A stretch of 64,000 nucleotides of DNA from a virus: IMG/VR virus record IMGVR_UViG_3300046810_000256, positions 19,007 through 83,006 of that record; one strand, given 5' to 3'. The first letter of the stretch is position 1. The number at the start of each line of letters is the position of its first letter. Shown here one piece after another: positions 18,671-64,000 of the stretch. The notes beneath the pieces were generated by a model, which had not been told where the DNA came from, ran no database searches, and saw only the letters and a list, made by a program, of their open reading frames with translations. The position numbers and the translations under genes were made by a program.

Positions 18671-19486
18671 CTAGAAATTTCCGTACGTGCCGGGCCGGAA
18701 ATAGGTGTCGCGCGGAAAACCTAAACGTTCATCTTCTTCATCAGCGCTCAGCAGACATATGGCTTCAAGCTCTCGCTCCACTCGTGGGTTCTTTGCTGCG
18801 AGCTCTACAAGGCCTTCGCTATCAACACTCATGTTCAGTGTTGAAACCTGAGACAGCCCTTCCATAGACGGACATTTGATGTCTTTGGTGATAATCCCCT
18901 GCTTGTATCGGTCGATGTATGGTGCGTAGCAGTCCCGATACGTCGCACGCAACAACTCACAGGCGGGACGTGTCTGAAGACAGATTTTACTAAAAAGCAT
19001 GCTTGAGCCCATTTTCCGGAACTCACGCGGCAAAGCGCAGTTAAACGAATGATCTAGGATCATGATCCGAGGGGAGCCCAGCTCGCTGGCGTACGCTTCA
19101 AGGCGCTGCGCGTACTCTCTTTCCTTTCCATGATCGGTGCTGCCGTGAAGTGTGCGCTCACTCAACAGAATTGCCCGACGCCGCCCGCCAGCTTGCCGAG
19201 AGGCGGCGACGATGAAGTGATAGGTGTGGAATCGGTAGTTGTCGCAAACAACCGCCAGAAAGTGTTCAAACGCCTCGCCGTGCTTAATCGGGCCATCACC
19301 AGCCAGCGCATTCTCAACCAACTGAGGGATTTCACTTGCCTTGAGTGAGGCACCGGGATGGCGGATTTTAGTGTTGCCAGAATTCCAAATCTTCACCGTG
19401 GATACGGAATAAGCTGCTTTGCTCAGCTGCCCCATCCGCGCACGGTATTCAAGATTCTCATCGTGACGACTGCGCTTGATAGTCAT
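18671..19486 (-). CDS. Unknown protein partnered with a LytTR regulator
   Basis: 271 residues, starting in an ATGA overlap with the LytTR gene, so the two are coupled. The protein has a basic N-terminus, cysteine-containing patches (KICLQTRPACELL, YRDCYAPYIDRYKQG) and an acidic C-terminal stretch (LSADEEDERLG). No signal peptide or membrane span is seen and I do not recognise a family. It lies between the terminase and head genes with its own terminator, like a moron. Function may be in regulation, host takeover or defence; this is open. Confidence 0.55.
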   Translation of the reverse strand: MTIKRSRHDENLEYRARMGQLSKAAYSVSTVKIWNSGNTKIRHPGASLKASEIPQLVENALAGDGPIKHGEAFEHFLAVVCDNYRFHTYHFIVAASRQAGGRRRAILLSERTLHGSTDHGKEREYAQRLEAYASELGSPRIMILDHSFNCALPREFRKMGSSMLFSKICLQTRPACELLRATYRDCYAPYIDRYKQGIITKDIKCPSMEGLSQVSTLNMSVDSEGLVELAAKNPRVERELEAICLLSADEEDERLGFPRDTYFRPGTYGNF

Positions 19487-20005: not shown

Positions 20006-21556
20006 TTAAGCGACGTCGGCGAGAAGGTCAGCTGCTTTGCTTAGAGTCGCCTGGGCCCGCGAAGACTGAGCCGCCTCGGTTTCTTCACTGCACGCGATGT
20101 AGTTGACGTCCTCAAGGAAGACCATGCAGATGGTGTCAAACAAGTCCGGGGATGACAGGCCATCGGCGGCCATGCTCTCTTTGCTGGCGATCTTGTAGCG
20201 CCCCAGCTCATCGAACGAATACGGCAGTCGTGAGCCTTGGTCGATCAGGTCGCGCTTGTGCTTCTTGCCCAGCTTGACCACGCCGTCTTTGATTGCCTCG
20301 GTGGCATGCACGGTGCATTGCGCGCGCTGGTTGATGAATCGCTTGCGGTTCTCGTTGGAATGCGGCTTGGCGCCCCACAGAACGCCCTGAATGATCATGC
20401 TGCCCTCTTGCAGCTCTTCCAGTCGGCGCTGGAACTGCTTACCCATGGCCGAGACGTCGATAACGATGGTGACGTTTGGCAGGCGCATGGCGTAATCGCG
20501 CAGCTTGACCGCCAGCGGCGTCCAGTCCTCAGTTGCGCTGTAGATCGGCACGTCGACCACCTCCACCCGGCGGCGGCGCTCGTTCGCCATCCGGTCGCCC
20601 TTGCCGGTGACGCGGAAGTGGGTGGCCACGGTCTTGTCTCGCCCAACGCCAGCCGCGACGTCGACAACGATAATGTGGCCCCACTCTTCGCCTGGCAGGA
20701 TCGGGCTCGCCTGCTCTATCGCCCGTTCGATCAGCACCGAACTCAGCAGGTATTTGCTGAGGTTGGTCGGGAACATGCCCCGCACCTTGATCTGATATTC
20801 CGGCTCCATCGTGCCGCCGTACTGGAGCCGCTTTTCCTTGATGAACTTGAGGCTGACAATCGGGCTTTCTTCGGAGTTGAATACCAGCGGTACCCAGCCA
20901 CCGCCGCGGTAGATGGACTGGCCGTGGTGCGTCTCCCAAAAGAAACCGGTAGAGCGCGTCGGCTGGCTGGCCATGATGAAGCGGTTGCGCTCGTCGGTCA
21001 GTGCGCCACCGATTACGCCAAAGTTCTCGTCTGGAATGCCGGACGCTTCGTCCGCCAGCCATAGCAGGTACTCGCCGTGGGTACCGGCCAAGTTCTCAGG
21101 CGAGCCGCGTGGAGCGGTACGGGTGGTGACGTACCATGTGGCGCTGTTACCGACCACATAGACTTTCTCAGCTTGGATAACCACGTAGTCAGCGATCCAC
21201 GCATGCGGCCCTTTGCGGATCTCCGCCAGCATGGTGGTGATTTCCTTCCACACACCCTCTCGCACCGTCTTGAGCTTCGGCGCGGTTACATAGGTGTTGG
21301 AATTGAGATAGCACAGCAGGTGCCAGAGGCAGATGACCCCGAAGCTGCGGGTTTTACCAGTACCGTGGCCAGACGATACCGACACCCGACAGCCGTAGAC
21401 TGAGGATTCATCAAAGAGCTCTTGTTGTTGCGGTGTGACATCCATCAAACACGCTTCAACCGCAAAGGCGTACAGGTTGAAGGCGTAGCGTTCGATGAAA
21501 GCGGGCCACCTCGGGTCTGTTTCTAAGCGCAGACGCTGGGCTTTCGGCTTGGCCAT
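20006..21556 (-). CDS. terL: Terminase large subunit
   Basis: 516 residues from the ATG at 21556 with AAGGATC upstream. Walker A is GHGTGKT at 63-69, the Walker B region YLLWLADEAS at about 163-172, with an arginine-rich adaptor around 130-160. The nuclease half has the first catalytic Asp in VVDVAAG (299), the second in VIDVSAMG (367) and the third pair in SPDLFD (471, 474). All expected motor and RNase H-like nuclease residues are present, so this should be the working DNA-packaging enzyme. It follows a weak hairpin. A close, degenerate paralogue lies immediately upstream. Confidence 0.9.
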   Translation of the reverse strand: MAKPKAQRLRLETDPRWPAFIERYAFNLYAFAVEACLMDVTPQQQELFDESSVYGCRVSVSSGHGTGKTRSFGVICLWHLLCYLNSNTYVTAPKLKTVREGVWKEITTMLAEIRKGPHAWIADYVVIQAEKVYVVGNSATWYVTTRTAPRGSPENLAGTHGEYLLWLADEASGIPDENFGVIGGALTDERNRFIMASQPTRSTGFFWETHHGQSIYRGGGWVPLVFNSEESPIVSLKFIKEKRLQYGGTMEPEYQIKVRGMFPTNLSKYLLSSVLIERAIEQASPILPGEEWGHIIVVDVAAGVGRDKTVATHFRVTGKGDRMANERRRRVEVVDVPIYSATEDWTPLAVKLRDYAMRLPNVTIVIDVSAMGKQFQRRLEELQEGSMIIQGVLWGAKPHSNENRKRFINQRAQCTVHATEAIKDGVVKLGKKHKRDLIDQGSRLPYSFDELGRYKIASKESMAADGLSSPDLFDTICMVFLEDVNYIACSEETEAAQSSRAQATLSKAADLLADVA

Positions 21557-21574
21557 ATGATCCTTAAACACAAA

Positions 21575-21607: not shown

Positions 21608-22327
21608 CTACGCCGTTCGCACTTTCAGAGACGGTTTGCGGTCTTGCGTGGCGTTCAGAACGAACGCTTTCCAGCTGCTGCCAGACGCCCAGCAGCTCAA
21701 CGTGGTTTGTGTCGCCCGGAAAAATCCTTTGCGTCGACCTTGGCCAGAGTGCAACACCATGCCGCCACCGCTGCGGGCAAGCCCTTCACGCGCCACCTGA
21801 AAGCTCACCTCCGGCATGGTGCTGGCGTCCTCCATCAACCACATGGGATCGCGCCCACCGAAACCGGCCATGTGTTCCGGGGAATGCGCGCTGGCGGCCA
21901 GAAAGAGCACGCCACAGCCTGAATACTCTGCCTGCTGGCGAAGTCTGATGCTTCTGATGGTGATTCGCAGGTAACCGACCAACCATGCGTGCTCGCCCTC
22001 AATACGCTTGACCAACTTGCTGTATTGCTCACAGCAGCGAAGCATGTCGCCGAAGGGCACGGCCACCATAGTCATCGACTCGGGGCGGCACAGCAGGCGC
22101 CAGAACGCGATAGGCGCCAGCGGGCTGATCATTCCCCGCTCCATCGGATTCATGTCTGACGCCATCGACACCTGGCAGTCAGGCAGCTGCACACTTTCGA
22201 AGGCTCGCGCCAGTTGATCGTCCACTACCATCCCGCACACCTCACGCGCGAACGCGGCCAGGTCGTTGGCGTAGCGCCGGACGAAAGCGGGCCAGCGCTC
22301 GTCATCTTGAATCAGGCTCGTGCTCAT
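21608..22327 (-). CDS. Degenerate terminase ATPase-like protein (split paralogue, N half)
   Basis: 239 residues from the ATG at 22327 in an ATGA overlap. It aligns by eye with the first 220 residues of TerL in this window: RWPAF at 11-15, a RYA..L.AFA.E pattern, CQVSMAS opposite CRVSVSS, HAWL opposite HAWI, and PMWLMEDAS (161-169) opposite YLLWLADEAS. Walker A is lost: the loop reads ASDMNPMERG (56-65) instead of SSGHGTGKT, without the Lys-Thr that binds ATP. There is no nuclease half. A regulatory or structural terminase subunit, or a decoy, is inference. Confidence 0.75.
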   Translation of the reverse strand: MSTSLIQDDERWPAFVRRYANDLAAFAREVCGMVVDDQLARAFESVQLPDCQVSMASDMNPMERGMISPLAPIAFWRLLCRPESMTMVAVPFGDMLRCCEQYSKLVKRIEGEHAWLVGYLRITIRSIRLRQQAEYSGCGVLFLAASAHSPEHMAGFGGRDPMWLMEDASTMPEVSFQVAREGLARSGGGMVLHSGQGRRKGFFRATQTTLSCWASGSSWKAFVLNATQDRKPSLKVRTA

Positions 22328-22923
22328 GCTGCGGCCTCGCTGGCCAGCTGCGCCAACTCGCGCTCGTGTTCGGCGATCAGCAGCGCGCCAGCCTTCTCGA
22401 TGGCGCGAAGTCGTGACTCTTGTTTCATGGGGGCGTGAGGCCATGGCCAGACGGTTGGCGCGAAGTCCGGCACCAGCAGCTGAAGCAAGTAACCCGCCGC
22501 CGCGCGCAGCAGCTCGTCATCGCGATAGCGCAGGTCGCGTTCCGGGTGATACCCCTTCACCAGCAGCTGGCGCTGGCGCTCGCTCAGAATGGCGTTCTCG
22601 CTCGGGCCGGTGATTGGCATGGATGACCACAGCGCCAGCGGCTGCTCCCATCCATTGGCGGCCTTCTGCGCCCATTCAGTTGTGGTCATGCGCGCATATG
22701 GCCGCGTCACGGAAATACCCTGATCACGCCCACGGCGCACCAGAAGCCACGCTTTTGGCTGCTGAGTGGCGTGGCGAGACTGCGCCAGCGATTCCCACAC
22801 CAGAAACGTCTTCTGTGTGTGGGCGTTCACGTACTCGCCCGTCTCGGTGTTGAATGCCAGGTCACTGATACCCGCATGCCGACACGAGCGCTCAAAATGT
22901 TCGCGACTGAAAAAGAGGGTCAT
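22324..22923 (-). CDS. Hypothetical phage protein (Ead/Ea22-like C-terminal motif)
   Basis: 199 residues, ATGA-coupled on both sides. The C-terminal third has the phage motif ERQRQLLVKGY..ERD..YRDDELL.AA, then WPW..AP, then RLRAIEKAGALLIAEHERE. Similar motifs occur in many Ead/Ea22-like and nucleotide-pyrophosphohydrolase-like phage proteins. The N-terminal half (THTQKTFLVWE region) is distinct. It lies between the two terminase-like halves, and its tight coupling suggests a shared role, but no biochemical function is proven. Confidence 0.5.
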   Translation of the reverse strand: MTLFFSREHFERSCRHAGISDLAFNTETGEYVNAHTQKTFLVWESLAQSRHATQQPKAWLLVRRGRDQGISVTRPYARMTTTEWAQKAANGWEQPLALWSSMPITGPSENAILSERQRQLLVKGYHPERDLRYRDDELLRAAAGYLLQLLVPDFAPTVWPWPHAPMKQESRLRAIEKAGALLIAEHERELAQLASEAAA

Positions 22924-23180
22924 GGTGTTGTTCCCGCCGCTGCTGGCTTGAATTGAAAGAGTTCGACAGGCGCCGCCGGTAAGTCGAATACGGCGGCGAG
23001 CCATGGGTGGATAGCATCCGGATCGCTGGCGCCGTCGAAGCGCCAGCGTTCTGCCGGGAAGTGTTCGCGCAGTGCGTGCTCGATCTCGCCCGCGCCATTG
23101 CGCAACCACAACTCATTCCCGCACTCACGCTCAACTGACAGCGTTTCGCCGGTCACAAGGTTCGTCACGGTCTGGCTCAC
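22920..23180 (-). CDS. Hypothetical small protein between the terminase halves
   Basis: 86 residues, overlapping both neighbours by four bases (ATGA). It contains ETLSVERECGNELWLRNG and a central AERWRFDGASDPDAIHPWL region; there is no recognised domain. Its coupling to the terminase-like genes puts it in the packaging operon. Confidence 0.5.
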   Translation of the reverse strand: MSQTVTNLVTGETLSVERECGNELWLRNGAGEIEHALREHFPAERWRFDGASDPDAIHPWLAAVFDLPAAPVELFQFKPAAAGTTP

Positions 23181-23662
23181 TTCATTTCCCCGGTCTTGCG
23201 GTTGATCTCGGTTGGCTTGGTGAAAGCGCGGGAGAATCGGAATTCAGCAATGACCTGATTGAAACTGTGTTCTACCCGGTCGAAATACTGATTCCCTTCG
23301 GCCATCAACGCCTGCGCCAGCCACGCGGCGGGGACGCTGCGCCCCTCTTCCACGTAGGTGGCCAGGCTCCGCACCAGCCGCTGCTCGGCGTAGGTACCGC
23401 TGAAGCCCGGCAGCAAGCGGCCCTTGCCGCGAACCGTCGTCGCCAGATCCACCGGGCGAGCGTCCGCGGTCGGCAGCACCAGATAGAACCCGCCGAGGCG
23501 CTTGGGCTCCAGGCGTGCAACACGGTCTTTTCTGCCAAAGATGCGCAACCCCGCCAGCGCCAGCGAATTGAAAATCAGGTTCGCGGTGTCCAGTCGGTGC
23601 TGCTGGCGCTCAGTCAGCGCGATTGCCGCGGGCGGTGTCAGTTGCACGGGTGCTGCTTGCAT
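23177..23662 (-). CDS. Hypothetical protein of the packaging operon
   Basis: 161 residues from the ATG at 23662, which has AGGGG six bases upstream (another ATG six bases before lacks proper spacing). It is ATGA-coupled to the next gene. The composition is alpha-helical with basic patches (RIFGRKDRVARLEPKRLG, YFDRVEHSFNQVIAEF). No known family is recognised. Confidence 0.5.
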   Translation of the reverse strand: MQAAPVQLTPPAAIALTERQQHRLDTANLIFNSLALAGLRIFGRKDRVARLEPKRLGGFYLVLPTADARPVDLATTVRGKGRLLPGFSGTYAEQRLVRSLATYVEEGRSVPAAWLAQALMAEGNQYFDRVEHSFNQVIAEFRFSRAFTKPTEINRKTGEMK

Positions 23663-23671
23663 ATCCATCCC

Positions 23672-23842
23672 CTAAATCTTGAGCCGCATCTGTGCGCGGT
23701 CACATTCGTTTTCACCGTGCGGGAGCTTGTGGGCCAAGGCTTCACAGTTCCTGCGCCCACAATCACGGCAGTAGGTGTAGGCGGGGGCGCTTCGTGGCCT
23801 CCGCCAGATGACGCGATTGCTTTCGCAAAAACGGCAGTTCAT
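23672..23842 (-). CDS. Small zinc-ribbon protein, 56 residues
   Basis: An ATG at 23842 with AGGA five bases upstream opens a 56-residue frame. The cysteine pairs CRFC (residues 3-6) and CRDC (25-28), with two more cysteines after, form a zinc ribbon or zinc finger. The start is 17 bases after the TGTCCGGGGATA motif. It lies between the nuclease-like half and the small packaging genes. It may bind nucleic acid or be a co-factor of the terminase-like complex. Confidence 0.6.
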   Translation of the reverse strand: MNCRFCESNRVIWRRPRSAPAYTYCRDCGRRNCEALAHKLPHGENECDRAQMRLKI

Positions 23843-23858
23843 CAGTCCTGTCCCGGTC

Positions 23859-23870
23859 TATCCCCGGACT
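23859..23870 (-). promoter_or_regulatory. TATCCCCGGAC motif at the stop of the nuclease-like gene
   Basis: A copy of the dispersed motif (plus-strand TATCCCCGGAC) overlaps the stop codon of the gene ending at 23869 and precedes the zinc-ribbon start by 17 bases. The same placement relative to a start codon is seen before the LytTR gene. Confidence 0.5.
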
Positions 23871-25155
23871 AGGCGGGACGCGCTTCGATCATCGCCTGCG
23901 CGTACACCCATCGGCGATTAGCAAAGGCGGCCATGCTTTCGTCTGATTTTTGCTTCAGCGGGCAGTTGATGGCGAAGTCATCGCGCAGCTCTGTCAGGTA
24001 CAGACCCAGCTTCTTCTCTGGCGCTTTCGGCGCGGTGGCCGGGTCGGCGTAGGCTGGCACGGGTTTTTCGACCGCCAGCGGCAGTTCAACGCTGTGATAC
24101 GCCATGCAGAAGGCATCAAACAGGTCGGCGGCTGGGAGTTGGGCGGCTGCGATGTGCGAAGGCTTGGCCACGAGATAGCGATTCTCGGCGCTCAACTCAT
24201 AAGGGATCTTTGAGCCCAACAGCACCAGCGGATCACTCAAGCCGCAATCGGATGGCAGCAGCAGCTTCAGGTTTTTATTCCGAATCGCCTCGGCAGTCAG
24301 AACACTGCATTCAGTGCGGCGGTTCACGAAACGCTTGCCGTTGCCACCTTTTGGCAGCGCTTGACCCATCGTCATTCCGTAACACCTGACATGGGGACTC
24401 ACAACGTCTTGAAGGTACTTGAGCAACTGCACGCCATCGCCGAAGGCATCCACGAGAATCGTCGTAGGGGCTGATAGCGCATTGACGTGCCGCAGCAACG
24501 CATCGCCGTAGGACTTCAGATCACCGCCGTCTGTGAGGATTGGATAGCTGGCCACCTCGACCAGTCGGCGGGCGTCAGGGCTGTCATACACGCGCATGTG
24601 GGCGGCAACAGTCATTCCTCCACGACCAGCACCGCCGAGACGGACACCGATTACATGCTTCGCCTCGACACCCTCGGGAATCGGGCTTTCGATGGTCAGC
24701 GCCAGGGCGATATCGGCGTCACTGAGCAGGTAGCCGCGACGATCCTGATTCTGCGCCCGAAGAATCGCGGGGACTTCGTTGTTCGAAGCCATCAATGCAG
24801 GCTGTACCTTGCCTTTGACCACCACTTGCAGCTGGCCAGATGAATTAGGACGAACGATGTCTTTGATGGCCGTCGCCACCGGGGAGGCCAGGTAACTGGT
24901 CAGCAGCGGGCGCAGGCGGTAGTGGGTTTGTGCGAATCGCTGTTTACGGCCAAAGCCTTCCTGAACCGACACGGGCTTACAGTTCGGAACATCTACCCAG
25001 TAATGCACACCACGGGCGGCATTAGCGCGATCCGGCGCCGATACCTTGTAACCTTGGGTGATGAGCCATTGCTTGAAGGACGTCACGTTGCACGCCAACA
25101 GCAGATCGGTGTCGTGCGATTGTCCTTTCGGTTTTACTGCGGGGTTCGACATCAT
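23869..25155 (-). CDS. Degenerate terminase nuclease-like protein (split paralogue, C half)
   Basis: 428 residues from the ATG at 25155 (ATGA overlap, AGGAG upstream). Residues about 140-360 align with the TerL nuclease half: GYLLSDADIALAL opposite KYLLSSVLIERAI, KRFVNRRTECSVLTAEAI opposite KRFINQRAQCTVHATEAI, and PAADLFDAFCM opposite SPDLFDTICM. The first catalytic Asp of TerL (299) is replaced by Arg (VIGVRLGG, residue 172); the others remain (D236, D344, D347). The ATPase half is absent; about 135 unrelated residues come first. Together with 21608-22327 it looks like a TerL copy cut into two genes. Function unknown. Confidence 0.75.
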   Translation of the reverse strand: MMSNPAVKPKGQSHDTDLLLACNVTSFKQWLITQGYKVSAPDRANAARGVHYWVDVPNCKPVSVQEGFGRKQRFAQTHYRLRPLLTSYLASPVATAIKDIVRPNSSGQLQVVVKGKVQPALMASNNEVPAILRAQNQDRRGYLLSDADIALALTIESPIPEGVEAKHVIGVRLGGAGRGGMTVAAHMRVYDSPDARRLVEVASYPILTDGGDLKSYGDALLRHVNALSAPTTILVDAFGDGVQLLKYLQDVVSPHVRCYGMTMGQALPKGGNGKRFVNRRTECSVLTAEAIRNKNLKLLLPSDCGLSDPLVLLGSKIPYELSAENRYLVAKPSHIAAAQLPAADLFDAFCMAYHSVELPLAVEKPVPAYADPATAPKAPEKKLGLYLTELRDDFAINCPLKQKSDESMAAFANRRWVYAQAMIEARPA

Positions 25156-25442
25156 TCAGCTCCTAGCGGGTTGGCCGTGAACGGCCTCAGATTTTTTGTG
25201 TTCCCGCGGCGGATGGCCGAGGGACGTTTTTCAACAACAGGCTTGATCCACAGCTGCCCTGTTTTGAACAGGAACAGCTCCCACAGCCCAAGCTTGATTT
25301 TGGTGTCACCCTTCTCGTACAGACGCCACGATTCGCGGCTCACGTAGATCAGCTCCCCCGCAGCGGTTTCGCTCAGGCTCGCGTTCTTGCGGGCTTGCCG
25401 GATGTTTTTTGGGGTCGGTTCGCGGTCGGCGGGGAGCGTCAT
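25152..25442 (-). CDS. XRE-like helix-turn-helix protein
   Basis: 96 residues with a helix-turn-helix region at about 10-55 (NIRQARKNASLSETAAGELIYVSRESWRLYEKG in order; key residues are the conserved glutamate and serine of the second and third helices). It is ATGA-coupled to both the TerS gene and the nuclease-like gene. It could be a packaging-site recognition factor or a small regulator; this is not resolved. Confidence 0.6.
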   Translation of the reverse strand: MTLPADREPTPKNIRQARKNASLSETAAGELIYVSRESWRLYEKGDTKIKLGLWELFLFKTGQLWIKPVVEKRPSAIRRGNTKNLRPFTANPLGAE

Positions 25443-26566
25443 GCGTCACCGCCGTTATCATCCAGCCCGGCGATATCGGCCATACGCTGGGCCATCGCGT
25501 CTCTCTGCGCTTGTGTGGCCTGCATGCCTTTCGCGTAGGCGTCATTCAGCGCAACCGTATCTACAACGGCCACAGGCGCCTGCGCCGGTTCGATATTCAT
25601 GTTGAAGATGCGGCCCAGCATTTCGAGGTAAGGGCGGGCGTCGTGGATCTTCATTTCCAGCCCATCTTTGGTTTCCTTCACGCCGCCGTACAGAGCCAGC
25701 GCGCCAGGCGAAAGGTGCCGGGTGTCTTTGAGCACGAGCTGGCCAATGCCATTGCCATTGCACTCAGGGCATTCCGGGTTAGGGTCGAGGTTGGCGTCGA
25801 AGCCCAGGCCGCCCAGCTCGTCGAGCACCGGTAACGGCTTGCGCTTCGCGGCCTTGGCTTCGGCCAGCGCCTCAGCATGGCGCGCCTTGCGCTCTTCCAG
25901 CTGACGCGGGGTCATCTGGTACCGGAAATCTTTGCCGTGGCAGCACCGGCAGCAGCGGTAAACGTATTCGACCAACTCCCGAGGGTCTGCCATCGCCGCG
26001 CCGTAGATGCGCTGAATGACTCGCCCGGTGATTTCCTCAGTCTTGGCAAACAGCTCCGCACGCTTGGCCAGCGTGTATGGGTGTTCCTTAACCTTCTTTA
26101 ACAGGCGACTGGCTGCTGCTGCCGCCACTGCATCGGATTTGCACTCGTAGCCTGCATCGAGATAGGACTGAGTGCCGTTTTGTGTGACCAGCCAAAGGTC
26201 GACAAACTTCGCCTGACGGGCGTCGAGATCGTGCAGACTCCCGGCCTGCAAGGCTTCCAGCTCTTTCGGTTTCAGCTTGACCGCTTTCTTCACTCGGGTG
26301 CTGCCGCCTGTTCCGCGAGGCGTTTTTGCTTGCGCCGGAGCACCCGGTACCGCCGCAGCAGGTTTTGCAGCACGGGGCTTTCGGGCTAAAGTAGCAGGCT
26401 TTTTAGGTGTCTTTGGAGAGGTGGCTTTTTGAACGCGGCCAGCACTCACCTTAACTTCTGGCTTTTTAGGGGGTGCAAACACAGGTTTGCCAGCCTTGTC
26501 CGGGGATTGATTATCCTCGGCTGGCTTAGCGCGCTCTTCGATACCCTCGATCTTTTTCCGTGCCAC
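25439..26566 (-). CDS. terS: Terminase small subunit-like DNA-binding protein
   Basis: 375 residues from a GTG at 26566 with AAGG about ten bases upstream. After a long Lys/Pro/Ala-rich tail (1-95), residues about 110-190 carry the TerS helix-turn-helix pattern: LDARQAKFVDLWLVTQNG.TQSYLDAGY. Then come cysteine pairs (CCRCCHG, CPECNGNG) forming a zinc-binding region, a common feature of this TerS group. TerS recognises the packaging site and recruits TerL. It starts the packaging operon. The nearest upstream element is a terminator and leader region. Confidence 0.75.
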   Translation of the reverse strand: MARKKIEGIEERAKPAEDNQSPDKAGKPVFAPPKKPEVKVSAGRVQKATSPKTPKKPATLARKPRAAKPAAAVPGAPAQAKTPRGTGGSTRVKKAVKLKPKELEALQAGSLHDLDARQAKFVDLWLVTQNGTQSYLDAGYECKSDAVAAAAASRLLKKVKEHPYTLAKRAELFAKTEEITGRVIQRIYGAAMADPRELVEYVYRCCRCCHGKDFRYQMTPRQLEERKARHAEALAEAKAAKRKPLPVLDELGGLGFDANLDPNPECPECNGNGIGQLVLKDTRHLSPGALALYGGVKETKDGLEMKIHDARPYLEMLGRIFNMNIEPAQAPVAVVDTVALNDAYAKGMQATQAQRDAMAQRMADIAGLDDNGGDA

Positions 26567-61051: not shown

Positions 61052-64000
61052 TTACTTGTGCAACACGATCAAGCGGGCATTTGCCGAGGTTTGCGCCAAA
61101 AGCGCATTGTCTTGGAACGTTCCGCCATCCAGCTTTTCGACATCGGCGTTGTGAGTGTCCAGCCAGGCGCGGAACTGCTCGGCCTTCTGATCCTGCCCAA
61201 AGAACACGCCCTCACCCGCAATCGCCACCAGCGTGCCGCCGCTGGCCAACATGCCGTAGGCGCGCATGATGTGCTCGGCGTCCTGGCGCTTGGAGAACGG
61301 CGGATTCATCAGAATTGCCTTATAGGGCTCGTCTGGCGTGAAGGTGTTGAAGTCTTGGGCGACCGCCGTATAACCCTTGAGCGTGAGGATGTCGCGCAGC
61401 TGACTGCTGATCTCGACCACGTCCACTTCGCCACCGGCAGCCGCTGCCGCGTCGGCAAGGTTGCCATTGCCCGCGCTCGGCTCCAGTACGCGCATGCCTT
61501 TACTGATCCGCGCCAGGCGCGCCATGCGGTGAGCCACGGCAACCGGAGTCGGGAAAAAGTCGATCCCTACTTTCTGGCCGACAATGGCACGCTCTGCTTT
61601 GACCACTGCGCTCTCTTCCTGCTTTTCCGCCAGATGCGGCAGCAGCGCCCTGCAAGCATCCTGCAACTGCGCGTCATTGGTGATGCCCATGCGGTTCAGA
61701 CGGTCGATCCGCGCCAGCATTTCCATCACGTCTTTCAAATCCCACTGTTCCTTGACCGTCCCCAGCACCTTGTATGCCTTGCGGGTGATGGCGATATCGC
61801 CGTCATTCACCAACGGCCAGCGCTCGACGCGGGCGCCCAGCTTGCTCAGGGCCGCGATCAATTTAGAGTTGCCCGCCGCGGCTTTCTTGGCCAGCGTCGT
61901 CGCCGCGCTCTTGTATCGACCAGACCACACCAGCCGCGGCGGCATGGTGACGTGTTGCAGCAGCTCGGGCCCAAACGGCTGGCCACGGCGCGCCAGCTGA
62001 TCGCTGTAGGTCAGTTGGCGCTCTGAGTCGTACTTTGCCCGGACAAGCGCATTGTTCAGCTCCTGTAACTGCGCGCGACTGTTGAGACTGGTCAGCGGCC
62101 CCGCCGCGCCGATTTCTATGGCGTCGGCAATGCTGTTGAGCGTCCTGCCGTCGGCCTCATCGGCAGCTGCTCGTGCATAGGCGCTCGCCGCCATCCCGGC
62201 CCGACGGTGCGTGTTGGTCTTGCGGTCAGCGTTCATGCCTTCCTGGCCACCGGCAATAGCCTTGTCACCGGCTGCGCGCAGTTTCTCCACCTGGTGGGAA
62301 ATGGCTTGCTGCTGTCGCTCCAGCGCCGCGCGAGTGTCACGTTCCTGCTTTTCCGCTTCCTGTTCCGGACTGAGCACTACCGGCGCCGGGGCGGCCTGAA
62401 TCGCGCTCGTGTCGCCCGCCAAGTGTTTTTCGCGGATGAAGTAACCGCCGTTCATGCGCCAGGTATAAGGATCGATGGCCTTCGCTTCGGCCAGCGTCAA
62501 ATCTGTGCGGATGATCCCGCGCAGCACCTTTTCGCGCTTGGTCGTGTACTCAATGATTTCGTACTGGGGCGCTGGCGCCGTGGGCGAATTTTTGACGCGC
62601 TCGGCCAGATGATCGTCTGCCCACTTGCGCACATAGGCCACGTACTCGTCTTTGTTGGCAGATATGCGCCCGCCCTTCTGCCGCTCAAACTCGCCCGCGC
62701 GGCTCCCGGCCCAACCGAGGAACCCGGCATTGCTGTTGTTGGTGGGCAGCTCTTCAAGCGTGTCGAGATAGGCCTGATAGATCGGGTTTTCGGATACCCC
62801 GGCGCCGATTGTCCGGTCAAACTTGGCCTGTTCTTGCGCATGGCGCTCAGCAACGATCCGGGCAGTTTCTTCGGCTACAGCTTGTTTGCGTTCCGCGTCC
62901 TGCTCTTGCGACTGTTGCTGTGTGGCCAATGCCTGCGCAGCGGTATCGATACTGTCCTGTTTGCGCTGTGCAATGGCGGCCTGTTCGTCCTGGTAGGCTT
63001 GCACGTCTTCCGGTGCTGCATCCTCACCGAACACCGTGCGGTACTTCTCCGCCCCCCAGCGCTGCGCCATCAGGCTTTTCAGCTCTGGCAGGTTGCGAGC
63101 AATGCCGGACAGCTCCCCGTCCGCCGCCACCGAAACACCGCCCTCGGCGTAGCTGTAGATGATCGCGCCCGATGGCAAAACCTCTTGTGAGCTCGGCAGA
63201 TACTGCGCCAGCCGCGCCTGGCTCTTGCTCAGCAAAAGCCCCGTCGACGTCTTGGAGTACTTCGCCTGATCAAGATAGGCATGCGCGTAGGCATCCAGCG
63301 CCGCAACGTCGCCCATCACCAGCACACCGCCATTCTTCTGCGGCAATAACCCGGTGATCAGCTGCTGACTTTTGGCCGGGGAACTGTGATCGTTTGCCGC
63401 TGGCGCGCTCGCGTCAACGGCGACCACTGCCAGTATGGTGATATTGATATCATCGTCTGCTACAGTGTCCTCGACGGCGTTTGGCTCCTGCACTTGAGGC
63501 AGAGCGTCAAGCATCCCGTTGGCGGCGTCATCGGAGCGGGGCCCTACCCCTGCATAATCCGTGACGCCGTTTTTGTATGCCTTCCAGCTACCACGCTCGG
63601 CGTGAGAAACGCTGTAGAACAAATTCCCCTTGCCGTCCTCGGCCACCGTCACACCCGCCGTCACCAGCAGATCGTCGACCTTCACCTGTTTCTGAATGAA
63701 GTAGAACGCCACAAATGCGTCATTGCGCTCTTTGTGCGGCTCCTGGCGCGCGCCAGCGGTACCGGTTTCCAGAATTTCACGCACGTACTCGATCAGACGG
63801 GCCTTGAGCACGTCCGATTTCATGCCCTGCTTGGACTTCTTCCAGCCGGTGCTGTTAACGCTCACCGGCCCCACCACGGACTGGATCAACTGCCCCTTCA
63901 GATGCTCCTGATAGAACTGCCGCGCCTTCTCAAACGCGACTTGGCCAGCCTCCGCGTCTGGCTTCTGTGGCTGGCCCAGCAGTGCGCGAATCGCCAGCCC
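61052..64000 (-). CDS. Giant polyvalent protein ending in an N6-adenine methyltransferase domain, partial
   Basis: 982 residues are visible and the frame is open through base 64000, so the start lies outside the window (an internal TTG at 63889 is not the start). Order: an LPD3-like domain near the edge (FYQEHLKGQL, SVNSTGWKKSK), a Gln/Ala-rich coiled coil (DTAAQALATQQQSQEQ), a domain with REKVLRGIIRTDLTLAEAKAIDPY, helical regions, and a C-terminal methyltransferase with EPSAGNG (SAM site) and NPPF (catalytic motif IV). The architecture is like P1 DarB-type and other 'polyvalent' proteins packed in the head and injected to protect DNA from restriction. It lies directly before the capsid gene. 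Confidence 0.75.
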   Translation of the reverse strand, partial: GLAIRALLGQPQKPDAEAGQVAFEKARQFYQEHLKGQLIQSVVGPVSVNSTGWKKSKQGMKSDVLKARLIEYVREILETGTAGARQEPHKERNDAFVAFYFIQKQVKVDDLLVTAGVTVAEDGKGNLFYSVSHAERGSWKAYKNGVTDYAGVGPRSDDAANGMLDALPQVQEPNAVEDTVADDDINITILAVVAVDASAPAANDHSSPAKSQQLITGLLPQKNGGVLVMGDVAALDAYAHAYLDQAKYSKTSTGLLLSKSQARLAQYLPSSQEVLPSGAIIYSYAEGGVSVAADGELSGIARNLPELKSLMAQRWGAEKYRTVFGEDAAPEDVQAYQDEQAAIAQRKQDSIDTAAQALATQQQSQEQDAERKQAVAEETARIVAERHAQEQAKFDRTIGAGVSENPIYQAYLDTLEELPTNNSNAGFLGWAGSRAGEFERQKGGRISANKDEYVAYVRKWADDHLAERVKNSPTAPAPQYEIIEYTTKREKVLRGIIRTDLTLAEAKAIDPYTWRMNGGYFIREKHLAGDTSAIQAAPAPVVLSPEQEAEKQERDTRAALERQQQAISHQVEKLRAAGDKAIAGGQEGMNADRKTNTHRRAGMAASAYARAAADEADGRTLNSIADAIEIGAAGPLTSLNSRAQLQELNNALVRAKYDSERQLTYSDQLARRGQPFGPELLQHVTMPPRLVWSGRYKSAATTLAKKAAAGNSKLIAALSKLGARVERWPLVNDGDIAITRKAYKVLGTVKEQWDLKDVMEMLARIDRLNRMGITNDAQLQDACRALLPHLAEKQEESAVVKAERAIVGQKVGIDFFPTPVAVAHRMARLARISKGMRVLEPSAGNGNLADAAAAAGGEVDVVEISSQLRDILTLKGYTAVAQDFNTFTPDEPYKAILMNPPFSKRQDAEHIMRAYGMLASGGTLVAIAGEGVFFGQDQKAEQFRAWLDTHNADVEKLDGGTFQDNALLAQTSANARLIVLHK

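Follow-up and report, generated by a model that had tools for sequence, protein, structure and literature searches.

Partial, catalytically degenerate paralogues of the large terminase beside an intact TerL in a viral packaging operon

The packaging operon and its intact large terminase

The stretch of DNA analysed here (the window) comprises 64,000 nucleotides, corresponding to bases 19007–83006 of the 83-kb virus record IMGVR_UViG_3300046810_000256. All genes described below were checked at their positions and lie on the minus strand. In order of transcription, the packaging operon begins with the gene for the small terminase TerS (25439..26566; family match to Terminase_2), followed in the interval between TerS and the C piece by a small HTH protein (25152..25442) with weak HTH matches and a position conserved in relatives. 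Next come a 428-aa protein that we call the C piece (23869..25155) and a 56-aa zinc-ribbon-like protein (23672..23842; CxxC...CRDC), which is assigned from its sequence and weak family matches and is conserved in relatives. Two small genes of unassigned function encode 163 aa (23177..23668; absent from the relative L013) and 86 aa (22920..23180; absent from some relatives), and a gene of ~200 aa (22324..22923) lies immediately before the motor piece or terL. The operon then continues with the 239-aa N piece, hereafter the motor piece (21608..22327), the intact TerL (20006..21571), a 132-aa protein and a 271-aa protein (18671..19486). The zinc-ribbon gene and three small genes that the first-pass annotation placed between the two pieces are thus present as described. 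The ~200-aa protein has a C-terminal module, of unassigned function, that is common to eight PHROG families whose proteins are otherwise different, as in a roaming domain.

The nearest relatives of the window are all from Pseudomonas: P. fluorescens DR133 (80,993 bp, complete), a P. azerbaijanoccidentalis contig, P. putida pKF715C and P. atacamensis SM1. Plasmid records together with the PacB-type terminase suggest that this group of elements consists of phage-plasmids. The arrangement found in the window recurs in the complete DR133 plasmid and in three other contigs; this agreement, together with the piece order (C, then N), rules out an assembly error or a frameshifted full-length TerL. Among 400 sampled genomes around G001 (P. 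azerbaijanoccidentalis), only one further TerL, a distant one, was found. Elsewhere in the window, a 945-aa protein (61052–63889) matches large PHROGs annotated as DNA methyltransferase or unknown, and might be the counterpart of an anti-restriction protein like DarB of P1.

The intact TerL is of the P1 PacB type (35–37% identity to P1 PacB and Xanthomonas phage Rb1) and retains all catalytic residues, with the motifs SSGHGTGKT (Walker A), LADEAS (Walker B) and ASQPT (motif III) and the nuclease residues Asp304, Asp372 and Asp476. Residues are numbered from the GTG start; if translation starts at the ATG of codon 6, the first nuclease Asp becomes residue 299. In this group, TerL is often interrupted by an intein-like insert placed exactly within the Walker A loop (SGHG^C...HN^TGKT), as seen in L017 (8450–10744), L021 (7380–9371), L040 (9013–11307), L041 (8995–11307), L046 (1372–3960), L047 (8989–10962) and L048 (5341–7929). 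Because these inserts occupy the Walker A loop of several TerLs, terL can be regarded as a repeated homing target. The motor pieces are without the intein-like insertion site.

TerL-derived genes with lost catalytic sites

The motor piece preceding terL is read as 239 aa from the ATG at 22327, the longest open reading frame extending to 22444. It aligns with TerL residues 16–242 (30% identity, E 3e-28), with a local score of 242 where 1000 shuffles reached at most 59, and at the top of the PDB list for its predicted model (pLDDT 77) stand only terminase ATPase domains (P74-26, HK97, T4). The resemblance to the N-terminal part of TerL that had been aligned by eye is therefore confirmed by sequence and by an ATPase fold match, and so is the loss of Walker A: the loop is replaced by ASDMNPMERG (residues 56–65; 22133..22162), with GTGKT giving way to NPMERGM-type loops. 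In addition, the Walker B DE reads ED and the motif III SQPT is lost, so that by its motifs we classify the protein as an ATPase-dead, motor-only TerL paralogue. Its best-kept part is the N-terminal segment corresponding to TerL 18–45; across TerL 18–30, motor pieces reach 63% identity as compared with 73% among TerLs. Motor-piece genes occur in 13 of 19 operons, being absent in six, and these 13 form a single clade (100/100). In L031 (8740–9000) and L036 (8760–9020), a 54-aa open reading frame with FIE(L/V)VAGKPLTP is a motor-gene tail left after loss of the motor domain.

The C piece has a different architecture, which alignment and comparison with relatives resolve into a frame protein with a nuclease-dead TerL domain in its linker. 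This TerL-nuclease-like insert (residues 140–358; 24082..24738) aligns with TerL 274–485 (34% identity, E 2e-21; local score 225 against a maximum of 58 in 1000 shuffles), in agreement with the proposed likeness to the TerL nuclease half. The replacement of the first catalytic Asp by Arg172 (24640..24642) was also read correctly, the TerL residue being Asp304 here and 299 with the ATG start, and Arg stands at this site in all five alleles. The predicted model of the C piece is poor (pLDDT 55) and too weak for surface arguments; its best PDB matches are terminase nucleases. The shuffles and the fold matches of the pieces rule out chance similarity to TerL.

Both ends of the C piece are unrelated to TerL, a feature that the first-pass annotation had not noted. 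The N-terminal domain (residues 1–130; 24766..25155) and the C-terminal tail (residues 378–428, RDDFA..ANRRWVYAQAM; 23869..24024) each occur without a nuclease domain in relatives. In L013, whose TerL is 86% identical, the C piece has only 196 aa, with the N-terminal domain fused directly to the tail; the bare frame is likewise found in pKF715C, SM1 and other Pseudomonas relatives. Since such bare frames exist, we take the accessory protein to be older and the TerL nuclease domain to have been inserted into its linker. In the tree, the insert is placed next to the TerLs of the clade that includes the window (89/84), and it has in common with them an extra residue before VEV, while the TerL of L013 falls inside or beside this clade and all more distant frames are without the insert. 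Neither the C piece nor the bare frame protein had a match in the phage collection.

Beyond the two pieces, the region downstream of terL holds a third TerL-derived gene, which the first-pass annotation had missed. The 271-aa protein (18671..19486) had no family match; its profile aligns with nearly the whole TerL nuclease domain profile (hhalign probability 96.6, E 6e-10), identifying it as a far-diverged dead nuclease paralogue. Control comparisons of this profile with reversed TerL, the TerL motor and unrelated operon profiles gave nothing. L030, L031 and L036 have less diverged genes of this type, likewise downstream of terL. Upstream of terS in L035 (1678–2739), DUF1382 (PF07131) is joined to a dead TerL nuclease domain. 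Dead TerL nuclease domains are found in three settings, namely inserted in the frame protein, encoded downstream of terL and fused to DUF1382; a common origin of all nuclease pieces is neither supported nor rejected (AU p = 0.44).

Across homologues, catalytic loss separates the paralogues from the TerLs. All 13 motor pieces lack the Walker A GK(T) and carry Glu in place of the Walker B Asp, whereas both motifs are intact in 26 of 26 TerLs. The first nuclease Asp is absent in all 15 nuclease-type paralogues, and the nuclease Asp is intact in 26/26 TerLs. At this site, Arg occurs in the in-frame inserts (5/5), Val in the downstream pieces (3/3) and other residues in the rest, which include g271 and U_L035, where the Asp is missing in alignments that are less certain at the site. 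In the in-frame inserts, the second and third Asp (Asp372, Asp476) are retained together with many core residues, and the Arg could pair with the two remaining Asp in the metal site.

The central claim of the first-pass annotation, a catalytically degenerate terminase paralogue beside an intact TerL, is therefore upheld: the degeneracy is conserved across homologues, and Walker A, Walker B and the nuclease Asp residues are all present in the neighbouring TerL. By descent, the pieces belong to the terminase fold superfamily, given their significant sequence and fold matches to TerL domains. They are not functional TerLs, being single domains without Walker A/B or the full acidic triad (D304/D372/D476). 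In conclusion, each piece is a partial paralogue in its own right of the TerL type that the phage itself carries, and the catalytic site has been lost in each.

Distribution, selection and exchange of alleles

The first-pass annotation had regarded the two larger pieces as a TerL cut into halves and had suggested an accessory pair of a tripartite terminase. The two do always occur together in the five genomes with an in-frame nuclease piece, as a jointly obligate pair would. However, the C piece is transcribed before the N piece, the two have separate origins, with the nuclease domain inserted in an older frame, and 8 of the 13 genomes with a motor piece have no in-frame nuclease piece. One ancestral split gene is ruled out by this order, by separate trees and by separate occurrence, and a split (bipartite) terminase is rejected because both active sites are dead and motor pieces occur without the other part. 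The motor piece is moreover present in L028, L039 and L040 and absent in L034 and L041, beside TerLs that are ~97% identical, so it is not an obligate packaging subunit, which also disposes of a tripartite terminase with obligate accessory subunits; in L034 and L041, ~50 bp separates the preceding gene from terL. With L013, L016, L028, L034 and L041 already largely refuting it, we consider one TerL split into a jointly obligate accessory pair very improbable.

Instead, TerL-derived domains come and go as cassettes, as indicated by the bare frames, the motor pieces in 13 of 19 operons, the in-frame nuclease accompanying only 5 of 13 of these and the 54-aa tails. Such a pattern invites the explanation that the pieces are by-products of recombination, terL being prone to breakage and partial duplication and the pieces being either relics in slow decay or inserts that hitch-hike in accessory genes. 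Consistent with this, L032 has a 115-aa remnant, L031 and L036 retain only the 54-aa motor-gene tail, the L013 frame has no nuclease domain, and intein-like inserts occupy the Walker A loop of several TerLs. On the other hand, the reading frames stay open across strongly divergent alleles, for which three tests gave neutral probabilities of 0.017, 0.005 and <0.001. The dN/dS values of the pieces are well below 1 and indicate purifying selection (~0.1–0.4, compared with 0.04–0.11 for TerL), although dS is saturated in many pairs and some values are rough. The replacement residues are likewise conserved (Arg in 5/5 inserts, Walker B Glu in 13/13 motor pieces). Weighing both sides, we regard decaying by-products as decidedly unlikely.

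Between the near-identical phages L005 and L012, the flanking genes are 88–98% identical at the DNA level and the nuclease insert 59%, with a dS of 1.8 for the insert as against 0.15 for TerL. The motor pieces of L006 and L005 are 53% identical, compared with 91% for TerL and 84% for the upstream gene. The trees disagree accordingly: the C pieces pair the window (W) with L012, whereas TerL pairs L005 with L012, and L006 and L013 have motor pieces that lie outside the clade of their TerLs. Motor and C pieces are thus exchanged between phages as divergent alleles, and TerL does not change with the swaps. The pieces therefore behave as accessory (moron-like) genes in being dispensable, variable in presence and absence, and subject to mosaic allele exchange.

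Candidate roles and comparison with known systems

Purifying selection, rapid divergence and the exchange of divergent alleles between near-identical phages suggest that the pieces are dispensable accessory proteins of a conflict type. Their expected co-expression with TerL, their variable presence and rapid change, and allele swapping without a matching change in TerL suggest a variable partner outside the phage's own motor. We tentatively favour, with somewhat less than even confidence, the reading that the pieces are non-catalytic TerL mimics that would bind something TerL also binds, as a decoy or in interference. The mimics would be made together with TerL from the packaging operon and would engage either a host sensor that recognises TerL, Avs-type proteins being the known kind, or the DNA-packaging apparatus of a rival phage or satellite. 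The dead active sites would allow a mimic to be present without DNA cutting or waste of ATP, and the small accessory parts joined to the dead domains may supply an effector or targeting function. Large terminase is known to activate AVAST/Avs immunity (PMC12931631; PDB 8dgc), so a TerL mimic would have a target. The variable presence and the allele swapping would also fit an anti-defence decoy better than an obligate packaging subunit.

Several considerations temper this mimicry reading. A dead mimic might trigger an Avs sensor instead of dampening it, and a position in the terS–terL interval would suit a packaging regulator just as well. The strongest counterpoint is the best-kept N-terminal TerL segment, which could equally bind the phage's own TerS, TerL or portal. 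The pieces might accordingly be non-catalytic regulators of the phage's own terminase, in which case the dead domains would attach to TerL, TerS or the portal and modulate initiation, cutting or headful termination. Tight gene packing in one operon with terS and terL, the conserved segment 18–45 of the motor pieces, and the Asp372, Asp476 and many core residues kept in the C insert all point in this direction. Against it stand the presence or absence of the pieces beside a nearly identical TerL and the allele swaps to which TerL shows no matching change, and we consider such a regulator, the leading alternative to mimicry, possible but somewhat unlikely. A broader version of the mimicry reading, which we rate as rather unlikely, holds that phages repeatedly copy their own terminase domains, kill the active sites, join them to accessory parts and trade them as decoys against TerL-sensing immunity or the packaging of competitors.

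TerL drives DNA packaging and at the same time acts as a danger signal to bacterial immunity. If true, dead and swapping TerL mimics would represent either a new control of packaging or a new escape from defences that sense TerL; gene deletion in complete plasmids, for instance that of P. fluorescens DR133, makes the question testable.

Dead paralogues (pseudoenzymes) are common in biology, but we know of none for a phage packaging motor, and the open-licence literature searched describes no phage TerL decoy, terminase paralogues or dead TerL-domain family. No such genes were found in the stretches examined beside terL in P1, Xanthomonas phage Rb1, and Ideonella, Burkholderia and P. psychrotolerans elements. 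The closest comparison is the window's own P1 PacB-type TerL, which the pieces resemble in fold, sequence family (30–34% identity) and operon; they differ from it as single domains without Walker A (motor piece) or the first nuclease Asp. In SaPI, Ppi mediates satellite interference with helper packaging and shares with the pieces the idea of a small protein that acts on the terminase, although by description it is satellite-encoded and not a dead TerL domain. Finally, truncated forms of T4 gp17 are made from internal starts in gene 17 and likewise place partial TerL proteins beside the full TerL; those forms derive from one gene with active sequence, whereas the pieces described here are separate, dead and fast-evolving genes.
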